Assembly (NCBI GenBank): GCA_001464455.1
Contig: LNEI01000004.1
Coordinates: 124,001 to 188,000, forward strand
Length of the DNA: 64,000 bases
Direction of reading: 5' to 3'
From: Acidobacteria bacterium Ga0077534
GTDB lineage: Bacteria; Acidobacteriota; Blastocatellia; Pyrinomonadales; Pyrinomonadaceae
In this document: positions 3,736-40,642 of the stretch, piece after piece
Numbering within the stretch: the first letter of the stretch is position 1
How the letters are laid out: each line of letters begins with the position of its first letter
Notes under the pieces: model-generated
Told to the model about the DNA's origin: nothing
Databases searched by the model: none
The model's input: the letters and a program-made list of their open reading frames with translations, nothing else
Position numbers and translations under genes: made by a program

Positions 3736-3978
3736 ATGGCGAGGAAGGCGCGGGTCGAGATCGAGGGTGGGTTGTACCATGTTATTACGCGTGGCAATGA
3801 CCGTCAGACTATTTTTCATTCTCAAGAGGATCATGCAAAGTTTCTGTCGCTTCTGGCCGGGTTGAAGGAGCGGCTACCGTTCTATTTGTATGCCTTTTGC
3901 CTGATGTCGAACCACGTTCATCTGCTGATAGGGCGTGACATTGGCGTTCTCCTGCCGGTTTCGTTTACCATTACCTAA
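3736..3978 (+). pseudogene. REP-associated tyrosine transposase (RAYT, IS200-like Y1 family), truncated
   Basis: About 80 residues of a Y1 transposase N-terminus: MARKARVEIEGGLYHVITRGNDRQ, then FCLMSNHVHLLI, which contains the HUH-type metal site (H-V-H). Intact RAYT proteins are roughly 200 residues or more and carry the catalytic Tyr downstream; here the frame leaves homology after the HVH motif and stops at 3976-3978, overlapping the hslU ATG (TAATG). The catalytic Tyr half is missing, so it cannot be active. Full-length relatives mobilise or maintain REP palindromes, and this window is full of REP-like hairpins. Confidence 0.85.
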
Positions 3979-22931: not shown

Positions 22932-23207
22932 ATGAAAAAGGTTATACTTTCGACAGTTCTTGGATTGAGTGCACTTGGAATGGCTTGCGGCGGTGCTGCT
23001 AACAACGCTCCGGCTAACAACGCAAACGCGAACAAACCGGCTGCTACCCCGGCTTCGACGCCTGCTTCGACCCCGGCAACCGTTGCTTCGCCTGCTGCTA
23101 ACGCTACTAACAGCATGTCGAACTCGGCTAACGCTAACGCTGCTAAGCCAGCTAACGCTGCAACCCCTGCTGCTAACGCAAACGCGAACAAGCCAGCTAA
23201 TAAATAG
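22932..23207 (+). CDS. Ala/Asn/Pro-rich small lipoprotein
   Basis: A 91-residue lipoprotein: signal MKKVILSTVLGLSALGMAC with the lipid Cys at 19, then only low-complexity sequence of Ala, Asn, Pro, Thr and Ser, ending NANANKPANK. AGGAG lies 11 bp before the ATG. The tail looks disordered, so it may be an envelope spacer or surface coat. It is a paralogue of the next gene: same signal, same C-terminal KPANK. Each has its own promoter and terminator, unusual for such small genes and a sign of high, separate expression. Confidence 0.85.
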   Translation: MKKVILSTVLGLSALGMACGGAANNAPANNANANKPAATPASTPASTPATVASPAANATNSMSNSANANAAKPANAATPAANANANKPANK

Positions 23208-23237
23208 TTAGACACGTCGAATATTGTTGTTGATTTA

Positions 23238-23275
23238 GAAAGCACTTCGCTTACTTGCGAGGTGCTTTCTTTTTC
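23238..23275 (+). terminator. rho-independent terminator
   Basis: A 13-bp stem starting GAAAGCACTTCGC (one G-T pair), 6-nt loop, then a T-rich tail. It closes the first lipoprotein gene. Confidence 0.88.
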
Positions 23276-23344
23276 TGCTATCCTGCGGAAGTTCGAAAAC
23301 TTGTGTTTTTTGAATAAAAAGTTGCATATTTTAGTGTTTTGGGG

Positions 23345-23373
23345 TTGACTTGATAGCCAACGAACACTATATT
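23345..23373 (+). promoter_or_regulatory. sigma70-like promoter of second Ala/Asn lipoprotein
   Basis: TTGACT (23345-23350), 17-bp spacer, TATATT (23368-23373). Leader of about 110 nt before the ATG. Confidence 0.75.
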
Positions 23374-23487
23374 GTGCAATGTTCCTAAAAATTTAAGAAA
23401 GACACGGGACAAGGGTCGACGTATATGCGGTCCTCGATTTAAATAATTTAGATCTAATCTTTGAAGAAGACAGGAGAATCTTTTGTT

Positions 23488-23787
23488 ATGAAAAAAGTAA
23501 TTGCCCTTTCAGCTGTTCTCGCTATGGGTGCTCTGGGAATGGCGTGTGGCGAAGCTGCTAACACGAACACGGCTGCTAACAAAGCCGCTAATGCTGCTAA
23601 CACCGCTGCTAACGCAATGGCAAACGCTGCTAACCAAATGGCGACCGCAGCTAACACTGCTGCTAACTCGATGGCTAACGCCGCTAACTCGATGGCAAAC
23701 GCCGCAAACGCAATGGCAAACAAACCGGCTGCTAACGCACCGGCTTCGAATGCTAATGCCAACGCTAACAAGCCAGCTAACAAATAG
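23488..23787 (+). CDS. Ala/Asn heptad-repeat small lipoprotein
   Basis: A 99-residue lipoprotein from ATG 23488 with AGGAG about 11 bp upstream; an upstream in-frame TTG at 23461 is rejected. The signal ends LGMAC with lipid Cys at 20. The mature chain is built from AAN-x-MAN heptads (for example AANSMAN twice, AANQMAT), giving Ala at two or three positions per turn like an alanine zipper, then a Pro-rich tail ending KPANK. By analogy to Lpp this could form a trimeric helix anchored to the outer membrane; that is inference. Confidence 0.85.
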   Translation: MKKVIALSAVLAMGALGMACGEAANTNTAANKAANAANTAANAMANAANQMATAANTAANSMANAANSMANAANAMANKPAANAPASNANANANKPANK

Positions 23788-23806
23788 TTAGTTTTACAAC
23801 CTTACT

Positions 23807-32447: not shown

Positions 32448-32494
32448 CCGAACAACGTTTGGAATGTTCGGTCAAAGTTCTTAATCTCCAGCCA

Positions 32495-32809
32495 CGGAAT
32501 GATCATTCCTTTCCGCAGAATTAGGATTTCTCCCCGCAGAATGAACATTTCTGTGAGCAAAACGAGCATTTCTCCGAGCAGAATGGGCATTTCTCTCAGC
32601 AGAATGGGCATTTCTGTCAGCAGAATGAGGATTTCTCGCAGCAGAATGCGCATTTCTCTCAGCAAAATGCTCATTCCTCTCAGCAAAATGGACGTTTCTC
32701 TCAGCAAAATGGCCATTTCTCCGGGCAAAATAACCACTTCGCTGCGCAAAATGACCATTTTGCTCCGCAGGATCGCCATCGTTTTTAGCAGAATCGGCGT
32801 TTTTGCTGG
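32495..32809. repeat. 15 x 21-bp minisatellite
   Basis: Fifteen 21-bp units run from 32495 to 32809 without a single insertion or deletion. Core of a unit: CAGAATGGGCATTTCTCTCAG-like, with an AATGnnCATT palindrome whose middle bases vary. Both minus-strand frames and one plus-strand frame stay open as heptad repeats; the plus frame reading Q-N-G-H-F-S-Q is broken by TAG at 32522. Coding status unresolved. Confidence 0.9.
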
Positions 32810-32812
32810 CGA

Positions 32813-32998
32813 TCAGGCGATCTCTGGCTTTTGCGGGGCTGAAAACCAGCATCGAGTGCATATCCACAGCCGTTCTTTTCGGGTGATCTTCGCCGACAGC
32901 CGCTCAAAGATGTCCTTTTCTCGATCGTCGAGCTCGCTCCACGGCCTAAAACCGGCGGAATCGCATCGCGGGCAGATTTTTTCTGATCGATGAATCAT
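32813..32998 (-). CDS. small zinc-ribbon protein
   Basis: A 61-residue protein with two CxxC pairs: KICPRCDSAGF (about residues 9-12) and WICTRCWFSA (about 47-50), separated by a charged helix (DDREKDIFERLSAKITRKER). This is a complete zinc-ribbon frame, so the small gene is probably real. It starts 60 bp from the divergent M14 peptidase gene and stops 4 bp from the minisatellite. Possible roles are nucleic-acid or protein binding; unknown. Confidence 0.65.
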   Translation of the reverse strand: MIHRSEKICPRCDSAGFRPWSELDDREKDIFERLSAKITRKERLWICTRCWFSAPQKPEIA

Positions 32999-35871: not shown

Positions 35872-35917
35872 AGTTGGGGAAGTTAAGGAGGTTTAGGAAG
35901 TTTAGGAAGTATGGAAG
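35871..35917. repeat. left 9-bp AGGAAGTTT-type array
   Basis: Direct repeats of a unit close to AGGAAGTTT, ending just before the four-helix-bundle ATG. The same array occurs inverted at 36279-36325 after the gene. Confidence 0.8.
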
Positions 35918-36286
35918 ATGAGTACGTTTAAGCGATTCGAGGACATCCAGGCCTGGCAGAAAGCTCGTGTTTTGGTCAGGGATATCTATTTGCTTAGTGG
36001 CGCCGGCGGGTTCGGGCGGGACTTTGATCTTCGAAGTCAGCTAAGGCGTTCCTCGATTTCGATAATGGCAAATATCGCTGAAGGCCAAGGTCGTCGCACG
36101 AACAAAGATTTTGCGAATTTTCTAAACATCAGCCTCGGATCAATAGCCGAAACCAAGTCGCATCTCTTTTTGGCCTTAGACATTGGTTACGTATCACAAG
36201 CAAAATTCGACGAAGTGTACGAAAAGCTGGACGAGGTCGGCAGAATGGTCTTCTCCCTAAGCCAACACCTCCGAAGCTCTTCCTAA
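35918..36286 (+). CDS. four helix bundle protein (23S rRNA intervening-sequence protein family)
   Basis: A 122-residue protein: FEDIQAWQKARVLVRDIYLL, FDLRSQLRRSSISIMANIAEGQGRRTNKDFANFLNISLGSIAETKSHL and DEVYEKLDEVGRMVFSL. This is the S23/IVP family (also the fold of Avd proteins of diversity-generating retroelements). The role of free-standing members is unknown; the basic face (QLRRSS, GRRTNK) suggests nucleic-acid binding. The gene sits exactly between inverted 9-bp arrays, with the ribosome-binding AGGAAG-like string inside the left array. No reverse transcriptase or 23S rRNA is near. Confidence 0.9.
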   Translation: MSTFKRFEDIQAWQKARVLVRDIYLLSGAGGFGRDFDLRSQLRRSSISIMANIAEGQGRRTNKDFANFLNISLGSIAETKSHLFLALDIGYVSQAKFDEVYEKLDEVGRMVFSLSQHLRSSS

Positions 36287-36325
36287 CCTTCCCGAACTTC
36301 CTAAACTTCCTAAACTTCCTAAACT
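36279..36325. repeat. right AACTTCCTA-type array (inverted copy)
   Basis: At least three direct AAACTTCCT units plus degenerate ones, the inverse of the 35871-35917 array. It overlaps the end of the four-helix-bundle gene and ends just before the next ATG. Confidence 0.8.
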
Positions 36326-36817: not shown

Positions 36818-36874
36818 AAAGGCCAGTCGTCCCGCGTGCTATCGGGGGCGGTCTGGAAAGTCAATTTCTTATGC

Positions 36875-36917
36875 GGCGGAGCCGCCAAAAGAAACTAGCC
36901 AGAGGTGAAACCTCTGG
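36875..36917 (+). repeat. REP doublet, copy 1
   Basis: Hairpin GGCGGAGCCGCC (36875-36886), linker containing AAGAAACTAGCC, then hairpin CCAGAGGTGAAACCTCTGG (36899-36917). Confidence 0.85.
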
Positions 36918-37013
36918 ACAAGTTTTGCCCGCATGTCGCCCTGAAGGGGCGAAGGACCGGCGTTCACCGGCGGTCTGCCGCACCTCCAGTGCGGACGATT
37001 CTAGCTTTCTTTT

Positions 37014-37059
37014 CCAGACGTTTCACGTCTGGCTAGATTCTTAAGGCCGCTCCACGGCC
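37014..37059 (-). repeat. REP doublet, copy 2 (inverted)
   Basis: Same order as copy 1 on the other strand: GGCCGTGGAGCGGCC, linker with AAGAATCTAGCC, hairpin with CCAGACG/CGTCTGG arms. Stem bases differ from copy 1 in compensating pairs. Confidence 0.85.
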
Positions 37060-37723
37060 AAGAGCCGAGTTTCAAACGGTCTCATTGAAGGTTCGCACGA
37101 CAGCCGCTAGGGGCCTTATCGAAATCCCTAACCGTCGGCTAAAGCCAACGGCAATACAAATGCTCAATATTTAAGCCGATCTTGCCGAGATCGCAATAAT
37201 GCGGTGTGTCAAAACCGCCAAAACGGCCATTTTCTGTGTCATTCTGACATTTTCCGACCGCATCTTTACTAGGCCTCTGCATCTTTTACGCGTCCGATTT
37301 GTTTTAGGCGATGAGCCGGCCCCGCGTTTCATCGGGTAGCGAAGTATGTTTCGTTTCCATCGCGTAGCGATGCCATGAATGTAGCCGTGGGTGACAACCC
37401 ACGGAAAGAATCAACAAATGATCGTTGTCGCGTCAGCGACAATTGAAAAACACGCCGCTCCGGTCAATCGTCGCTATGCGACGGGTATCTTTTTCCCGAC
37501 ATACCGTGGGTTTTCACCCACGGCTACGATCAGCCGTCGCTCTGCGACAAAGAAGGCGGGCCAGAAGAATGGAACCACGAAAAGGCACGAAACAGCACAA
37601 ATAAGATCGTTCTATTTAGTGCATTTTCGTGCTAGTTAGTGGTTACTTCCCTCGCCCGGGGCAGAAGCGTGTCCCCAAAGGGGACAAACATTAAAGCCTG
37701 GGGTGCAGCGAGTCTTCGAGCGA

Positions 37724-37839
37724 AACCCTAGGTTACGCGGTAGTGTCAAATCCGTCCCTGTAGGGGACGGATAATGATGTCGCATCCTGATATTGCTCAC
37801 CTTCAGCGAGCGAACGTGGGGCAATTGTAACCTAGGGTT
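37724..37839. repeat. MITE-like element with 13-bp inverted ends
   Basis: AACCCTAGGTTAC at 37724-37736 and its exact complement at 37827-37839. The inside holds a CGTCCC/GGGACG hairpin and no open frame. Confidence 0.75.
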
Positions 37840-37981
37840 CCGCCAAAAAACGGCTGAGATGTCGCCGTGCCGCCCCTCCTTTTTAGGCTGCTCATTTGTA
37901 ACAAAATACTTCTTGAAATTAGGGAGACAGCTTTGCGATGATTAAGAAGCGTTCGCGGTTCCGTTCCGCTCGTCCCGCCTT

Positions 37982-38575
37982 ATGAAATGTCCAAAATGCT
38001 CTTACATTCGCTCGGACACAGATAGCATGGTTCCAGAATGGCAATGCCCAAGGTGTGGCATTGTATACGCGAAGTATAGAAACCCAAGCGACCTAGCCGT
38101 ATCAGTATCCTTGTCGTCGGGCCAAAGTTTCGACTTCACCGAACTCAAACTTTACGACTCAAACAAACTAGCCCGATTATCACAGTTGTATTCAGCAATC
38201 GATAGGAATTATCGCGGCTTTTCAACGGGGATCGGATTTATTGGTGACATTGAAGATGTCGCTGCGGGATCCATCGTTAAAGGTGTCGTGGAAGGAGCCG
38301 TGTCGGGAGCCATGGCGAATACGGCTGCAAAGCAGGCTGAAGAGGCTGAAAAACTTTATCGGAATATTAGAAGTACTGGGTTCGTGGTACCAGTAGCAAT
38401 CGTCGAAAACATCGACTTACCTCAACCTGAACTTTGGAAAGTTCCCCATTTCAAATCGGATGCGAAAGTAGAGCTATCTCATATTCCCGGCAAGTTTATT
38501 ACAATCCGCAAAGATGGCAGAGACCTAGCGATATTCTGGGATAAAGTCGAGTCATATAGCCTATCTTCTGGGTAG
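37982..38575 (+). CDS. zinc-ribbon protein of unknown function
   Basis: A 197-residue protein with an N-terminal zinc ribbon (MKCPKCSYIRSD and WQCPRCGIVYAKY, Cys at about 3, 6, 22, 25) of the type that heads many uncharacterised membrane-linked proteins. A Gly/Ala-rich segment (about 80-115; GIGFIGDIEDVAAGSIVKGVVEGAVSGAMANTAA) may insert in or touch the membrane. The rest shows mixed strands without a known motif. Base composition is more AT-rich than the core genes, so it may be acquired. It follows the REP region. Confidence 0.7.
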   Translation: MKCPKCSYIRSDTDSMVPEWQCPRCGIVYAKYRNPSDLAVSVSLSSGQSFDFTELKLYDSNKLARLSQLYSAIDRNYRGFSTGIGFIGDIEDVAAGSIVKGVVEGAVSGAMANTAAKQAEEAEKLYRNIRSTGFVVPVAIVENIDLPQPELWKVPHFKSDAKVELSHIPGKFITIRKDGRDLAIFWDKVESYSLSSG

Positions 38576-38703
38576 CCTCCGAACGCGAAACCGGTTTTGA
38601 ATTCGCTGGTGCGGCCCCCACACTTTTGATTTACAGAAATTCTAGCGGCTCCGCCGCCATTCTTCCCTTTAGAATCGCGACCTTACAAGACTTCCTGGAC
38701 TTT

Positions 38704-40104
38704 TCAAGAATCAACCTCGTGAATCCTCATCTCGTCTAATAGTTCATTCCTTAGATCGTTGGCTAATCGAGCTAAGTATTTTAGGTCATTGCGATCTTTT
38801 GCAGCTTCCAAGAATAGTTCGAAATGGTGTAGGGCCTCAGGAAGATTTCCATTTTTTCGATGTTGCATTATTGCCACGATGAAAAGTGACGGAATAAACC
38901 CTTTTTCGGCTTGGCGGAGGTTGAAATCAATTACCTGTTGGACTGTTTCTTCCTCACCGGGATAGGTCTTCGAAAAGATCGTCCCGTAGGTTTTCCATGC
39001 CGATTTATGGGTACCTGCGTGCATTTCAAGAAATGCAATGTTGTATCTCCAAATACCGACGTTCCCGGCTACCGGCTTAAGTCGATGGGTCGTCTTTAAC
39101 GCGGCAGCTGAGTCATTATCGTGTTCAAACTGTATGCGCGCAAGAATGACAAGTGAATCATGATCATTTGGTCGGACAGTTTGAGCTCGATCAAGGTACG
39201 ACTTTGCGAGGACGGCATCGTTCTGTCCGAAATAAGCAACTTGAGCAAGAGTCGTACATTCTGCTGCTATCATTCGTCGTACATGTTTCTGAATGGCTGC
39301 TCGGGGTGGGGTACTCGGTAACTTGACGATGTGTCCGAGAAGTTTGTTATGGAGTTCGAGGGCAATTTGGACATTCCCGACCATCGCGGCTGCGGTGCCA
39401 ATAACTAGGTCTGACGCCAGGACAAGTTCATCTGCAGAGAACTGTAGTCCTTGATATTCAGCGTTCTTATCAATCTTTATTTCTTTAAGCCAGCGGAATT
39501 GTTCAGCCAATTGCTTTCTTCTGAACGGAGCAATCTCCGAATGCAATACCATAGCATCCGATTTCAGAATAAGGACGCGATTGCCTCCGAACTCGGCGTC
39601 TTGCCGTTCTGAGAGAGTTCCCCAGATGAAAAAATGGCAGTTTGTTCGCTTTTGAAAGCTTCTAAACCGTCTTAAGTCGGCTTTTGATTGTGGGGGTATT
39701 GAGTCTAGGTGGCTCATATGCTTGGTCAGTAGCGGTTTGAATTTTACTGCCTGCTGGTTGGTGGCCAGCACGATCTCGAAAGCATGTTTGAGACCCAAAA
39801 TCTCAATGGTCTCAGTCATTCGAACAAACAAATCATTCTCAACGCGTGAGCGCCCCTCGTCGGTCTCGGTCGTAATGAAAACGCCAATACCAAACTTTCC
39901 AGTGCGATTTCTAGGAGGGGGATTTCGAAATGAATGCCAAAAAAAAGTCCAACCGGCTCCGATGACTAGAATCAAGCAAATCGCTAGTATCCAGTTGGGC
40001 TGACCGAAGATTTCGGCAATTGCTCCACCCCCGGTAACAATAGCTAAATAGCCACCGATCAATGTCGCGACACTTTGGACCCATTCTGGTGCCTCTTTCA
40101 TCAT
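38704..40104 (-). CDS. membrane protein with TPR-like C-terminus, unknown
   Basis: About 466 residues from ATG 40104 (the next codon is also ATG). Two membrane helices lie near the N-terminus (ATLIGGYLAIVTGGG and WILAICLILVIGAGWTFFW). A middle domain (about 75-200; GIGVFITTETDEGRSRVENDLFVRMTETIEIL and CHFFIWGTLSE) resembles the CsgG-like/TolB-like segments of stress sensors with TPRs. The remaining part is helical repeats (ALELHNKLLGHI, AVLAKSYLDRAQTVRPNDHDSLVILARIQFEHDND, EALHHFELFLEAA). A terminator-like hairpin with U-tract stands right before the start. Family unknown. Confidence 0.7.
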   Translation of the reverse strand: MMKEAPEWVQSVATLIGGYLAIVTGGGAIAEIFGQPNWILAICLILVIGAGWTFFWHSFRNPPPRNRTGKFGIGVFITTETDEGRSRVENDLFVRMTETIEILGLKHAFEIVLATNQQAVKFKPLLTKHMSHLDSIPPQSKADLRRFRSFQKRTNCHFFIWGTLSERQDAEFGGNRVLILKSDAMVLHSEIAPFRRKQLAEQFRWLKEIKIDKNAEYQGLQFSADELVLASDLVIGTAAAMVGNVQIALELHNKLLGHIVKLPSTPPRAAIQKHVRRMIAAECTTLAQVAYFGQNDAVLAKSYLDRAQTVRPNDHDSLVILARIQFEHDNDSAAALKTTHRLKPVAGNVGIWRYNIAFLEMHAGTHKSAWKTYGTIFSKTYPGEEETVQQVIDFNLRQAEKGFIPSLFIVAIMQHRKNGNLPEALHHFELFLEAAKDRNDLKYLARLANDLRNELLDEMRIHEVDS

Positions 40105-40111
40105 CCTCACA

Positions 40112-40144
40112 CAAAAAGGCTTCGCCCGTTGCCGGACGAAGCCT
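40112..40144 (-). terminator. hairpin with U-tract just upstream of a start codon
   Basis: On the minus strand AGGCTTCG/CGAAGCCT closes a 28-nt hairpin followed by TTTTTG, 8-10 bp before the ATG at 40104. It could end transcription from the right, or act as an attenuator of the following gene. Confidence 0.65.
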
Positions 40145-40346
40145 CTCAATTCACATGCAATAAACGGGTTTGCAAGCGAGTTGGGATTGCTCGCCCTAGT
40201 TGTTAGGAAGCGGCAAGCAGAGATGCCTGACGCTCCAATCTTCTATTCCAATATCCATACCGCCAATCCCGAGGTTGCCGCCTTTTTTTCTTGGACGTCT
40301 CCAATCGCGGCTTAAATTACTGTATCGGAATATTAGCATTAGTCTC

Positions 40347-40577
40347 TCAAATTTCGAAAAGTATCTTCGGGTCTTTTTTTGCGATCGACAGGAGTTTTAG
40401 GCTGGCACCGCTGGGTTTGCCGAGACCTTGTTCCCAGGATTGGACTGTGCGGGGGGAGATGTTGAGATAACGTGCGAAGACGGCGGGCGTGGTCACGAGT
40501 GAGAGAACCACCCCGTCACCGAAGCGGTGCCACCCCTTCTTCGTAAGGAGGGGAGTCTTTTGGCGGCTCCACCGCAC
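40347..40577 (-). pseudogene. Xre/HTH antitoxin-type regulator, truncated
   Basis: The last about 50 residues read TTPAVFARYLNISPRTVQSWEQGLGKPSGASLKLLSIAKKDP, the C-terminal half of a NadS/HigA-type helix-turn-helix antitoxin. The normal N-terminal part (about 40-50 residues) is replaced by sequence from a hairpin-rich repeat (CCCCTTCTTCGTAAGGAGGGG-like at 40530-40555), so the frame is an artificial fusion. No toxin gene remains beside it. It is probably a broken toxin-antitoxin remnant. Confidence 0.7.
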
Positions 40578-40597
40578 GAATATTTGTCCACAACCGA

Positions 40598-40642
40598 CCA
40601 GAAGCTCCGCATCTGGCTATTTTCTTATAGCCGCTTCACGGC
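40598..40642 (-). repeat. REP doublet, copy 3
   Basis: GCCGTGAAGCGGC hairpin, linker with AAGAAAATAGCC, then CCAGA/TCTGG hairpin; same order and spacing as copies at 36875 and 37014. Confidence 0.8.

Follow-up and report, generated by a model that had tools for sequence, protein, structure and literature searches.

Double hairpins as predicted ends of small mobile DNA elements in Acidobacteriota

What kind of element do the paired hairpins of an Acidobacteria bacterium represent, and which enzyme could have spread them? The window examined here, i.e., a stretch of 64,000 nt of contig LNEI01000004.1 (positions 124,001 to 188,000; assembly GCA_001464455.1) of Acidobacteria bacterium Ga0077534, contains three such doublets, which an earlier note had read as the make-up of a BIME, possibly still used by an active RAYT. 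Our analysis suggests that they are the ends of small mobile elements that lost their enzyme gene, that relatives carry the same ends around a compact Y1 transposase, and that one catalogued RNA of unknown function appears to be such an end.

Architecture of the doublets

What the earlier note had described was confirmed, as all three copies are present to within 1–2 nt and copies 2 and 3 are inverted relative to copy 1. The core AAGAAnnTAGCCAGA occurs without mismatch at exactly these three places in the window; with three mismatches allowed the count of 13 is no more than the 14.7 expected, so only the exact hits are informative. The note's claim of paired stem changes also held: on 18 doublets of this genome 97.6% of stem cells pair and 16 cells have double changes, against 6.9 in shuffles, and on 100 distinct doublets 97.0% pair and 145 cells have double changes, against 40.3, although this second alignment is fitted to the model. 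The 195-nt stretch folds far better than shuffled sequences (z –8.2, 0 of 200).

Not recognized before was that copies 1 and 2 are the two halves of one quasi-palindromic element (~36847–37083). Its left arm on the plus strand comprises a degenerate outer terminal repeat (36847–36862, GGCGGTCTGGAAAGTC), read by eye against the outer repeat GAGGTTGTCTGAAAAGTC of near-identical copies in a same-genus genome (G060), followed by hairpin A (36873–36885), a linker ending CTAG, the nTAG tag at the foot of B (36886–36898), hairpin B (36899–36917) and hairpin C (36936–36952, TCGCCCTGAAGGGGCGA). The right arm on the minus strand follows with hairpin D (36978–36994), hairpin B' (37014–37032), a linker (37033–37044, CTAGATTCTTAA), hairpin A' (37045–37059) and a degenerate right outer repeat (37067–37083), also assigned by eye. 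A covariance model (R1) scored the left arm with 66.8 bits (contig C4, 160872–160917) and the right arm with 71.7 bits (161014–161059), the best in the genome, both being training sequences. The third copy at 40598–40642 (minus strand) is a lone arm with B' at 40598–40616, linker at 40617–40629 and A' at 40630–40642 (57.6 bits at 164598–164643, likewise a training sequence), and a C/D-type hairpin of this half element lies at 40562–40575 (minus strand; weak model hit of 18.6 bits). A second six-hairpin element of the same layout but with other stems, also missed before, is located at 37358–37548 (A 37358–37372, GTAG-B 37385–37404, C 37425–37442, D 37469–37483, B' 37504–37523, A' 37536–37548).

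The absence of further doublets and of a full RAYT had been named in advance as grounds for giving up the BIME reading. Here, the covariance model found 27 doublets at E<1e-5 in this 4.2 Mb genome, nine inverted pairs among them, and a profile search gave 10 Y1_Tnp matches, the window fragment included, so this condition is not fulfilled. Across the family, doublets occur in 45 of 119 genomes, own included. Two inverted palindromes forming a dispersed non-autonomous unit, as described for REPINs and BIMEs, are hence present both here and in G060. Own copies L009 and L016 sit where the repeat of the type found at gene L033 has another hairpin, a sign of nested repeats that was not pursued.

A Y1 transposase between the arms in relatives

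Which enzyme could serve these arms? The interpretation of the earlier note was only partly supported: a BIME/REPIN-like, transposase-linked repeat is backed by the data, whereas the link to the RAYT remnant at 3736–3978 (plus strand) is not. This Y1 fragment is real (Pfam Y1_Tnp, E=2.6e-8, residues 15–67 of 81), and its match ends before the catalytic Tyr part. It hits only the NCBIfam class 2 RAYT model REP_Tyr_transpos (NF047646) with 33 bits at a cut-off of 80, which for a truncated fragment leaves its membership in that class undecided. In contrast, three enzymes found inside the doublets score 51.8–57.2 bits with the IS200 model (cut-off 55) and 15.9–17.7 bits with the RAYT model; service by a class 2 RAYT is thus not borne out for these genes. 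Although class 2 genes (L037, L040) exist in the genome, they are flanked by other palindromes and no R1 match lies near them. Mobilization by a class 2 RAYT of the window type, as proposed in the earlier note, is therefore considered very unlikely.

Widely spaced inverted doublets were seen in seven relatives. In the five with ~600 nt between the arms (G103, G031, G023, G049, G030) the space holds an ORF for a Y1 transposase of 147–148 aa, in G118 (~400 nt) a broken ORF was read by eye, and G001:C97 (~960 nt) was not opened; gene L125, found by protein, has doublets on both sides. In the autonomous copies read, hairpins matching C and D lie shortly before the tnpA start codon and after the stop codon, respectively, and the window element is that layout minus the gene. 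Doublets of at least 40 bits lie within about 200 nt of 10 of the 11 distinct genes of one tree clade (support 88/80, bootstrap not settled; five of the 10 had been found through the doublet, the other five by protein) and beside 0 of 28 scanned rows outside it. Among genes gathered mostly by protein similarity, inverted arms were present in 54 of 83 (49 of 78 without the five seeds) against 2 of 149 control spans, and hairpin-spacer-TAGC, resembling the hairpin, about 10 nt and TAGC of the window arm, in 50 of 83 against 8 of 149. However, 29 of the 83 genes had no inverted arms at the score used, and in a second set arms were found in 14 of 20 and lacking in 6.

The proteins carry the motifs of the Y1 subclass 1.2 (Quentin 2018, PMC6006769), for which REPs and typical IS ends are described as lacking. 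DH[VI]H, WQ and Y---Q--HH at about 148 aa are found in all five proteins of one set (A3), and Y---Q--HH in 82 and WQ in 83 of the 83 genes, which had been pre-selected for Y...Q..H; the subclass's own profile was not applied. The HUH motif is conserved as well, and IS608 and other solved TnpA are relatives. The published absence of REP-like or IS-like ends does not hold for most such genes examined here, as hairpin arms flank them and gene-less copies are dispersed.

In the window's own genome no cognate enzyme was found, and the suggestion that an active RAYT may still use this doublet is not supported by the assembly. Four of its five matches to the cognate profile (L031–L034) were placed in the tree and lie outside the clade whose genes carry this doublet, though the branch of L034 is long and its place unsure; the fifth match was not placed. 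The best own score with that profile is 165.6 bits. L031 and L034 are flanked by doublets of the same layout with other stems. With no cognate enzyme found and own copies 68–88% alike, activity here is not shown.

Dispersal and the likely mode of movement

Evidence for recent spread comes from G060, which holds at least 63 doublets. A strict pattern found 15 pairs in 20 fetched loci, 11 of them with both outer repeats; these 11 are 93.6–98.7% alike (~97%), with sharp ends. A target-site duplication was sought and not found (mean 2.8 nt against 3.2 for mismatched flanks, 11 copies). Of the 15 pairs, one lacks the outer repeat on one side, two on both and one (L114) is of another type, so the true ends of the mobile unit are not settled; no empty site was compared, since only one genome per species was included, and mobilization in vivo was not measured. 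Loci L100 and L101 suggested insertion into pre-existing palindromes. The two flanks match each other inversely somewhat more than chance (mean 5.1 against 4.3 for mismatched pairs, sd 0.9; 1 of 11 at score 8 or more against 0 of 110), which is suggestive, yet unexplained.

The outer repeat could alternatively be the end used by an unrelated (DDE) transposase, with the hairpins as passengers of a MITE, since 11 of 15 G060 pairs share it on both sides. A DDE gene flanked by this repeat was not sought. Nevertheless, the lack of target duplication, the two pairs keeping the inner unit without outer repeats, and the Y1 gene between R1 arms in the five relatives opened render this option unlikely.

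With high confidence, we consider the doublets as arms of non-autonomous, REPIN/MITE-like elements, whose parent is A – linker-nTAG – B – C – tnpA – D – B' – CTAn-linker – A', where tnpA is a 147–148 aa single-domain HUH/Y1 transposase with the motifs of subclass 1.2. By analogy to IS200/IS605 and TnpA-REP, the enzyme would bind a B hairpin on single-stranded DNA, the nTAG at its foot would act as guide, cleavage would fall outside A, and the excised strand would be joined into new sites without target duplication, in cis for autonomous and in trans for gene-less copies. The layout, the gene inside the arms in relatives, the matching of hairpin type to transposase clade, the dispersed near-identical copies and the lack of target duplication rest directly on our data, while the single-strand pathway, the hairpin bound, the cleavage points and mobilization in trans are inferred.

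Several known systems are comparable. In REPINs and BIMEs mobilized by RAYTs (Bertels and Rainey 2011, PMC3116915; Nunvar 2010, PMC2817692), inverted palindromes likewise form the replicating unit, a Y1 gene sits between two of them, enzyme and palindrome coevolve and a tetranucleotide marks the hairpin foot. The present arms differ in having three hairpins rather than one and an enzyme with subclass 1.2 (IS200-like) rather than class 2 RAYT motifs. Regarding the GTAG/GTGG tag, GTAG was observed in G060, in the arms of genes L085 and L078 and in several relatives, but mostly CTAG or ATAG in this genome, which does not decide the point either way. IS608 and ISDra2 (IS200/IS605) share the HUH/Y1 TnpA and subterminal hairpins with tetranucleotide guides (PMC6006769; PMC8266576), while the arms here are inverted and three hairpins long, and no tnpB was found among the ORFs between the arms in the five loci opened. 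TIRYTs and TIRtrons (Di Nocera 2013, PMC3733652) are tyrosine transposases with long, some "double palindromic," terminal repeats, Acidobacteria among them, and REP joined to a second stem-loop in Pseudomonas; likeness of the repeats was not compared. All 26 TIRYTs were placed in subclasses 2.1, 2.2 and 2.5, none in 1.2 (PMC6006769). The cognates are 147–148 aa with Y---Q--HH, Pfam shows only Y1_Tnp at 6–118 of 148 for L085, and a subclass 2.1-type protein with C-terminal HTH is thus not what we observe.

Acido-Lenti-1 as a putative transposon end

The Rfam family Acido-Lenti-1 RNA (RF01687) is the same two-hairpin unit read from the other strand, as B'-CUA-linker-A'. It hits the second window element at 37504–37549 (37.3 bits, gathering score 37) and reaches this score at arms beside genes L145, L173, L160, L137, L265 and L266. 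The three doublets themselves are no hits at E<0.01; other R1-type sites that match score 24–30 bits, except two weak R1 matches on contig C9 (31.6 and 32.9 bits with R1) that reach 40 bits with RF01687. Of 37 loci with a gene, 11 had RF01687 at E<0.01 and 4 reached the cut-off, and beside an independent set of 20 top-scoring genes from outside the family it was found at 4 of 20 (one further gene, G369:C26, was left out for lack of flank), so the family covers only some stem types. In 247 Acidobacteriota genomes, gene and motif co-occur (46 both, 15 and 12 alone).

Could the doublet primarily be a structured non-coding RNA, acting as sRNA or 3'-end/terminator element? RF01687 is classed "Gene; sRNA," Weinberg 2010 (PMC2864571, Table 1) gives "probably" RNA, stems covary, and RF01687 lies beside only 4 of the 20 independent genes and occurs without a gene match in 15 of 61 genomes. 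However, arms occur as inverted pairs around a transposase gene or around no gene, disperse as near-identical copies and track a transposase across genomes, and covariation is expected of a single-strand DNA hairpin, too. In the R1 doublets, G.T cells exceed A.C cells (22 against 4) on the strand opposite to Rfam's model, although these cells are not independent and the model itself favors G.T. We therefore regard a primary RNA role as unlikely, while a transcribed role in addition is not excluded. No link to a transposase was found in the published description, apart from its additional files, which were not covered, and among open-licence PMC articles two other papers mention Acido-Lenti-1 as annotation only, in Tannerella (PMC13298647) and Vibrio anguillarum (PMC10059132), sites that were not examined here.

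It is thus probable, but not proven, that Acido-Lenti-1 is not an RNA gene but the terminal double hairpin, i.e., the single-strand DNA substrate, of a widespread transposon class run by subclass 1.2 Y1 enzymes in Acidobacteriota, Planctomycetota, Bacteroidota and Lentisphaerota. This would provide a likely substrate to a HUH enzyme subclass reported to have none and re-read as transposon ends an Rfam family whose function is still called little known in 2026 (PMC13298647). Moreover, the recent burst in G060, the gene-bearing elements of G103, G031 and others, and the apparently enzyme-less genome studied here supply a natural contrast for studying how REP-like repeats arise and decay.

Composite elements in the window and in the genome

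The observation of the earlier note held, as all three doublets were found in place, and the core AAGAAnnTAGCCAGA matches exactly at those three sites and nowhere else in the window. However, copies 1 and 2 are not separate but represent the two arms of one quasi-palindromic element with two more hairpins (C and D) between them, and this stretch folds on itself far better than shuffled sequence (-58.3 against -30.8 kcal/mol, z -8.2). Copy 3 is a lone right arm with one inner hairpin left. A second six-hairpin element of the same plan, featuring other stems and GTAG tags, lies at 37358-37548.

The window is part of a genome of 4.2 Mb in 32 contigs, and loci at other places show the same composite, i.e., A, linker ending nTAG, B, C, D, B', linker and A', although one of them (L004) lacks C and D. 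The absence of further doublets and of a full RAYT had been named beforehand as an outcome that would speak against the earlier note, but a covariance model (R1) built from 18 doublets found at least 27 of them in the genome at E<1e-5, 18 of which are the training set; only 150 of 2329 first-look candidates were scored in this search, so the count may be low. Nine inverted pairs with starts 61-146 nt apart account for 18 of the 27. On 100 distinct doublets from 65 loci, 97.0% of stem cells pair and 145 cells carry double changes against 40.3 in shuffles, while slid controls pair at 31-50%, with the reservation that this alignment is fitted to the model, which leans towards the structure. The copies of this genome are 68-88% alike. 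Two of them (L016, 1352-1726, and L009, 1440-1720) sit at the place where the repeat type of locus L033 has another hairpin, with flanks swapped between the two, pointing to nested or exchanged repeat modules, and L033 itself features a direct repeat of about 548 nt (1-544 and 775-1319, 93% alike) upstream of a Y1 gene.

Apart from the doublets, further repeats were observed in the window. Inverted 38-nt repeats of the TTTAGGAAGT type at 35872-35909 and 36288-36325 (84%; an overlapping 30-nt pair 93%) flank the ORF 35918-36286, which encodes a 23S rRNA intervening-sequence protein (PF05635, E=3.5e-35). Moreover, 21-nt tandem repeats at 32476-32790 overlap the ORF 32499-32993, for which no Pfam match was found, and GCTAAC-rich degenerate repeats in several registers occur at 23010-23791.

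The transposase between the arms

R1 hits occur in 45 of 119 genomes of the family, own included, and at least seven relatives have inverted doublets too far apart for the short form. In five of these (genomes G103, G031, G023, G049 and G030; about 600 nt) the arms enclose an ORF of 147-148 aa (at locus L089 the listed ORF starts upstream, at 167 aa), with a C hairpin shortly before its start and a D hairpin just after its stop. In G118, a version of ~400 nt holds a broken ORF, as read by eye, whereas the pair on contig C97 of G001 was not opened. The proteins are Y1_Tnp (Pfam, protein of locus L085), their profile hits IS608 TnpA and other solved Y1 transposases, and three of them score 51.8-57.2 bits with the NCBIfam IS200 model (cut-off 55, reached by one) against 15.9-17.7 bits with the RAYT model (cut-off 80). 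Their motifs (DHVH, WQ, Y---NQ--HH) are those given for subclass 1.2 (Quentin et al., 2018, PMC6006769, Table 1 and section 18), which is listed there as having no REPs and generally no IS200-type ends. The Y1 fragment of the window, in contrast, hits only the RAYT model.

The type of doublet was further compared with the phylogeny of the transposases. Of 42 loci scanned with R1, matches of 40 bits or more lie beside the genes L120-L126, L136/L158, L151, L157 (a copy of L124) and L198. In a tree of 42 proteins, whose bootstrap had not settled, these fall in one clade of 12 rows (support 88/80), where they represent 10 of its 11 distinct genes, the exception being L129 with 18.5 bits. Five of the ten (L120-L124) had been found through the doublet, while L125, L126, L136/L158, L151 and L198 came in by protein. 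Among the 28 scanned rows outside the clade, 0 reach 40 bits (best 33.3 bits, L160); L141 (39.5 bits) is not in the tree and two rows of the tree were not scanned. The own-genome genes L031-L034 lie outside the clade, although L034 is on a long branch and its place is unsure; L031 (G000:C18:293725-294165, G000 being the own genome) is flanked by GTAG doublets similar to those of the second element of the window. The own genome has five matches to the cognate profile A3, of which the fifth was not placed, and the best reaches 165.6 bits, against 286-298 bits for the five seeds, which score high by construction, and 256-279 bits for L125 and L126. So no cognate enzyme was found in this genome (assembly 97.9% complete). 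The interpretation of the earlier note, which saw a BIME make-up and suggested that the genome may still have an active RAYT using the doublet, is supported only in part, as the system is REPIN-like but the cognate genes found in relatives are not of the RAYT type of the window fragment.

Dispersal and generality of the arms

The same-genus genome G060 has at least 63 doublets (150 of 1527 candidates scored). In 20 fetched loci a strict pattern found 15 pairs, of which 11 have both copies of an outer repeat GAGGTTGTCTGAAAAGTC, one has it on one side, two have none, and one is another type. The 11 are 93.6-98.7% alike (median 96.6%) with flanks that do not align, and no target duplication was found in a comparison of 11 copies, one of them different from the former set. 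That is the mark of recent dispersal by an enzyme that does not duplicate its target, as is the case for Y1 enzymes.

To see how general this architecture is, genes were gathered by protein similarity, giving 110 loci, 90 usable and 83 distinct, including the five (L120-L124) found through their doublets. The upstream and downstream 200 nt match as inverted arms (score 20 or more) in 54 of 83 against 2 of 149 displaced spans, and a hairpin followed 5-14 nt later by TAGC occurs in 50 of 83 (24 of 27 Acidobacteriota loci and 26 of 56 of other phyla) against 8 of 149, with the spacer peaking at 10 nt. Arms beat all 60 shuffles in 25 of 26 genes of the family, 1 of 1 further acidobacterial locus and 35 of 56 of other phyla. 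In a second set, comprising the 20 best genes outside the family with room for flanks, arms reach the score in 14 of 20 and hairpin-spacer-TAG occurs in 15 of 20, against 163 of 2000 random window spans for the latter. The planctomycete locus L173 shows the plan plainly, whereas the Bacteroidota locus L199 shows hairpin-linker-hairpin with another tag.

Acido-Lenti-1, strand and inferred mechanism

Rfam RF01687 (Acido-Lenti-1) hits the window at 37504-37549, the right arm of the second element, at 37.3 bits (gathering 37), and its consensus reads CC-stem hairpin, CUA, linker and short hairpin, i.e., B'-CUA-linker-A'. Of 37 loci with a subclass 1.2-like gene, 11 have it at E<0.01 (L137, L132, L131, L138, L127, L173, L145, L160, L141, L140 and Lentisphaera L228), four of them over the cut-off (L137, L173, L145 and L160), and L145 and L173 have it on both sides of the gene. 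The same applies to L265 and L266, which were, however, picked because gene and motif lie side by side. The own genome has 17 hits at E<0.01, 6 of them over the cut-off. Of 35 genomes of other phyla that carry such a gene, 20 have RF01687 at E<0.001 and 9 over the cut-off. G150, the planctomycete genome of locus L223, has at least 100 hits, several of them in inverted pairs about 140-190 nt apart.

In 247 Acidobacteriota genomes chosen at 90% completeness or more, RF01687 (E<1e-4) is in 61, the gene (profile A4, E<1e-20) in 58, both in 46 and neither in 174 (Fisher p about 1e-25). By family, 18 have both, 4 RF01687 only and 1 the gene only; relatedness is not corrected for beyond this. RF01687 has been listed as a probable RNA (Weinberg, 2010, PMC2864571), and a recent paper still states that little is known and suggests gene regulation (PMC13298647, 2026). 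On the opposing side, RF01687 lies beside only 4 of 20 independent genes, 15 genomes have it without the gene and 12 have the gene without it, and the three doublets of the earlier note are no RF01687 hits. So RF01687 is one subset of stem types of a wider architecture.

In 100 doublets, G.T stem cells outnumber A.C cells 22 to 4 on the A-to-B strand. This fits a strand-specific hairpin, on the strand opposite to Rfam's model, but the cells are not independent and the model favours G.T. By analogy with TnpA-REP and IS608, where cleavage at CT near the hairpin and GTAG as guide are described (PMC8266576), the nTAG at the foot of B is the likely guide, which is GTAG in G060. Which hairpin is bound, what A and C do, and where cleavage falls is not shown. 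Two G060 pairs that keep only the inner unit begin at TCTT before A, a possible end containing CT. While the anatomy of the elements and their association with the transposase are strongly backed by the sequence data, their function was not tested and the mechanism is inferred. In our judgement, this is a REPIN-like system with a new pairing of substrate, the double-hairpin arms, and enzyme, a transposase of subclass 1.2, together with a re-reading of an Rfam family.
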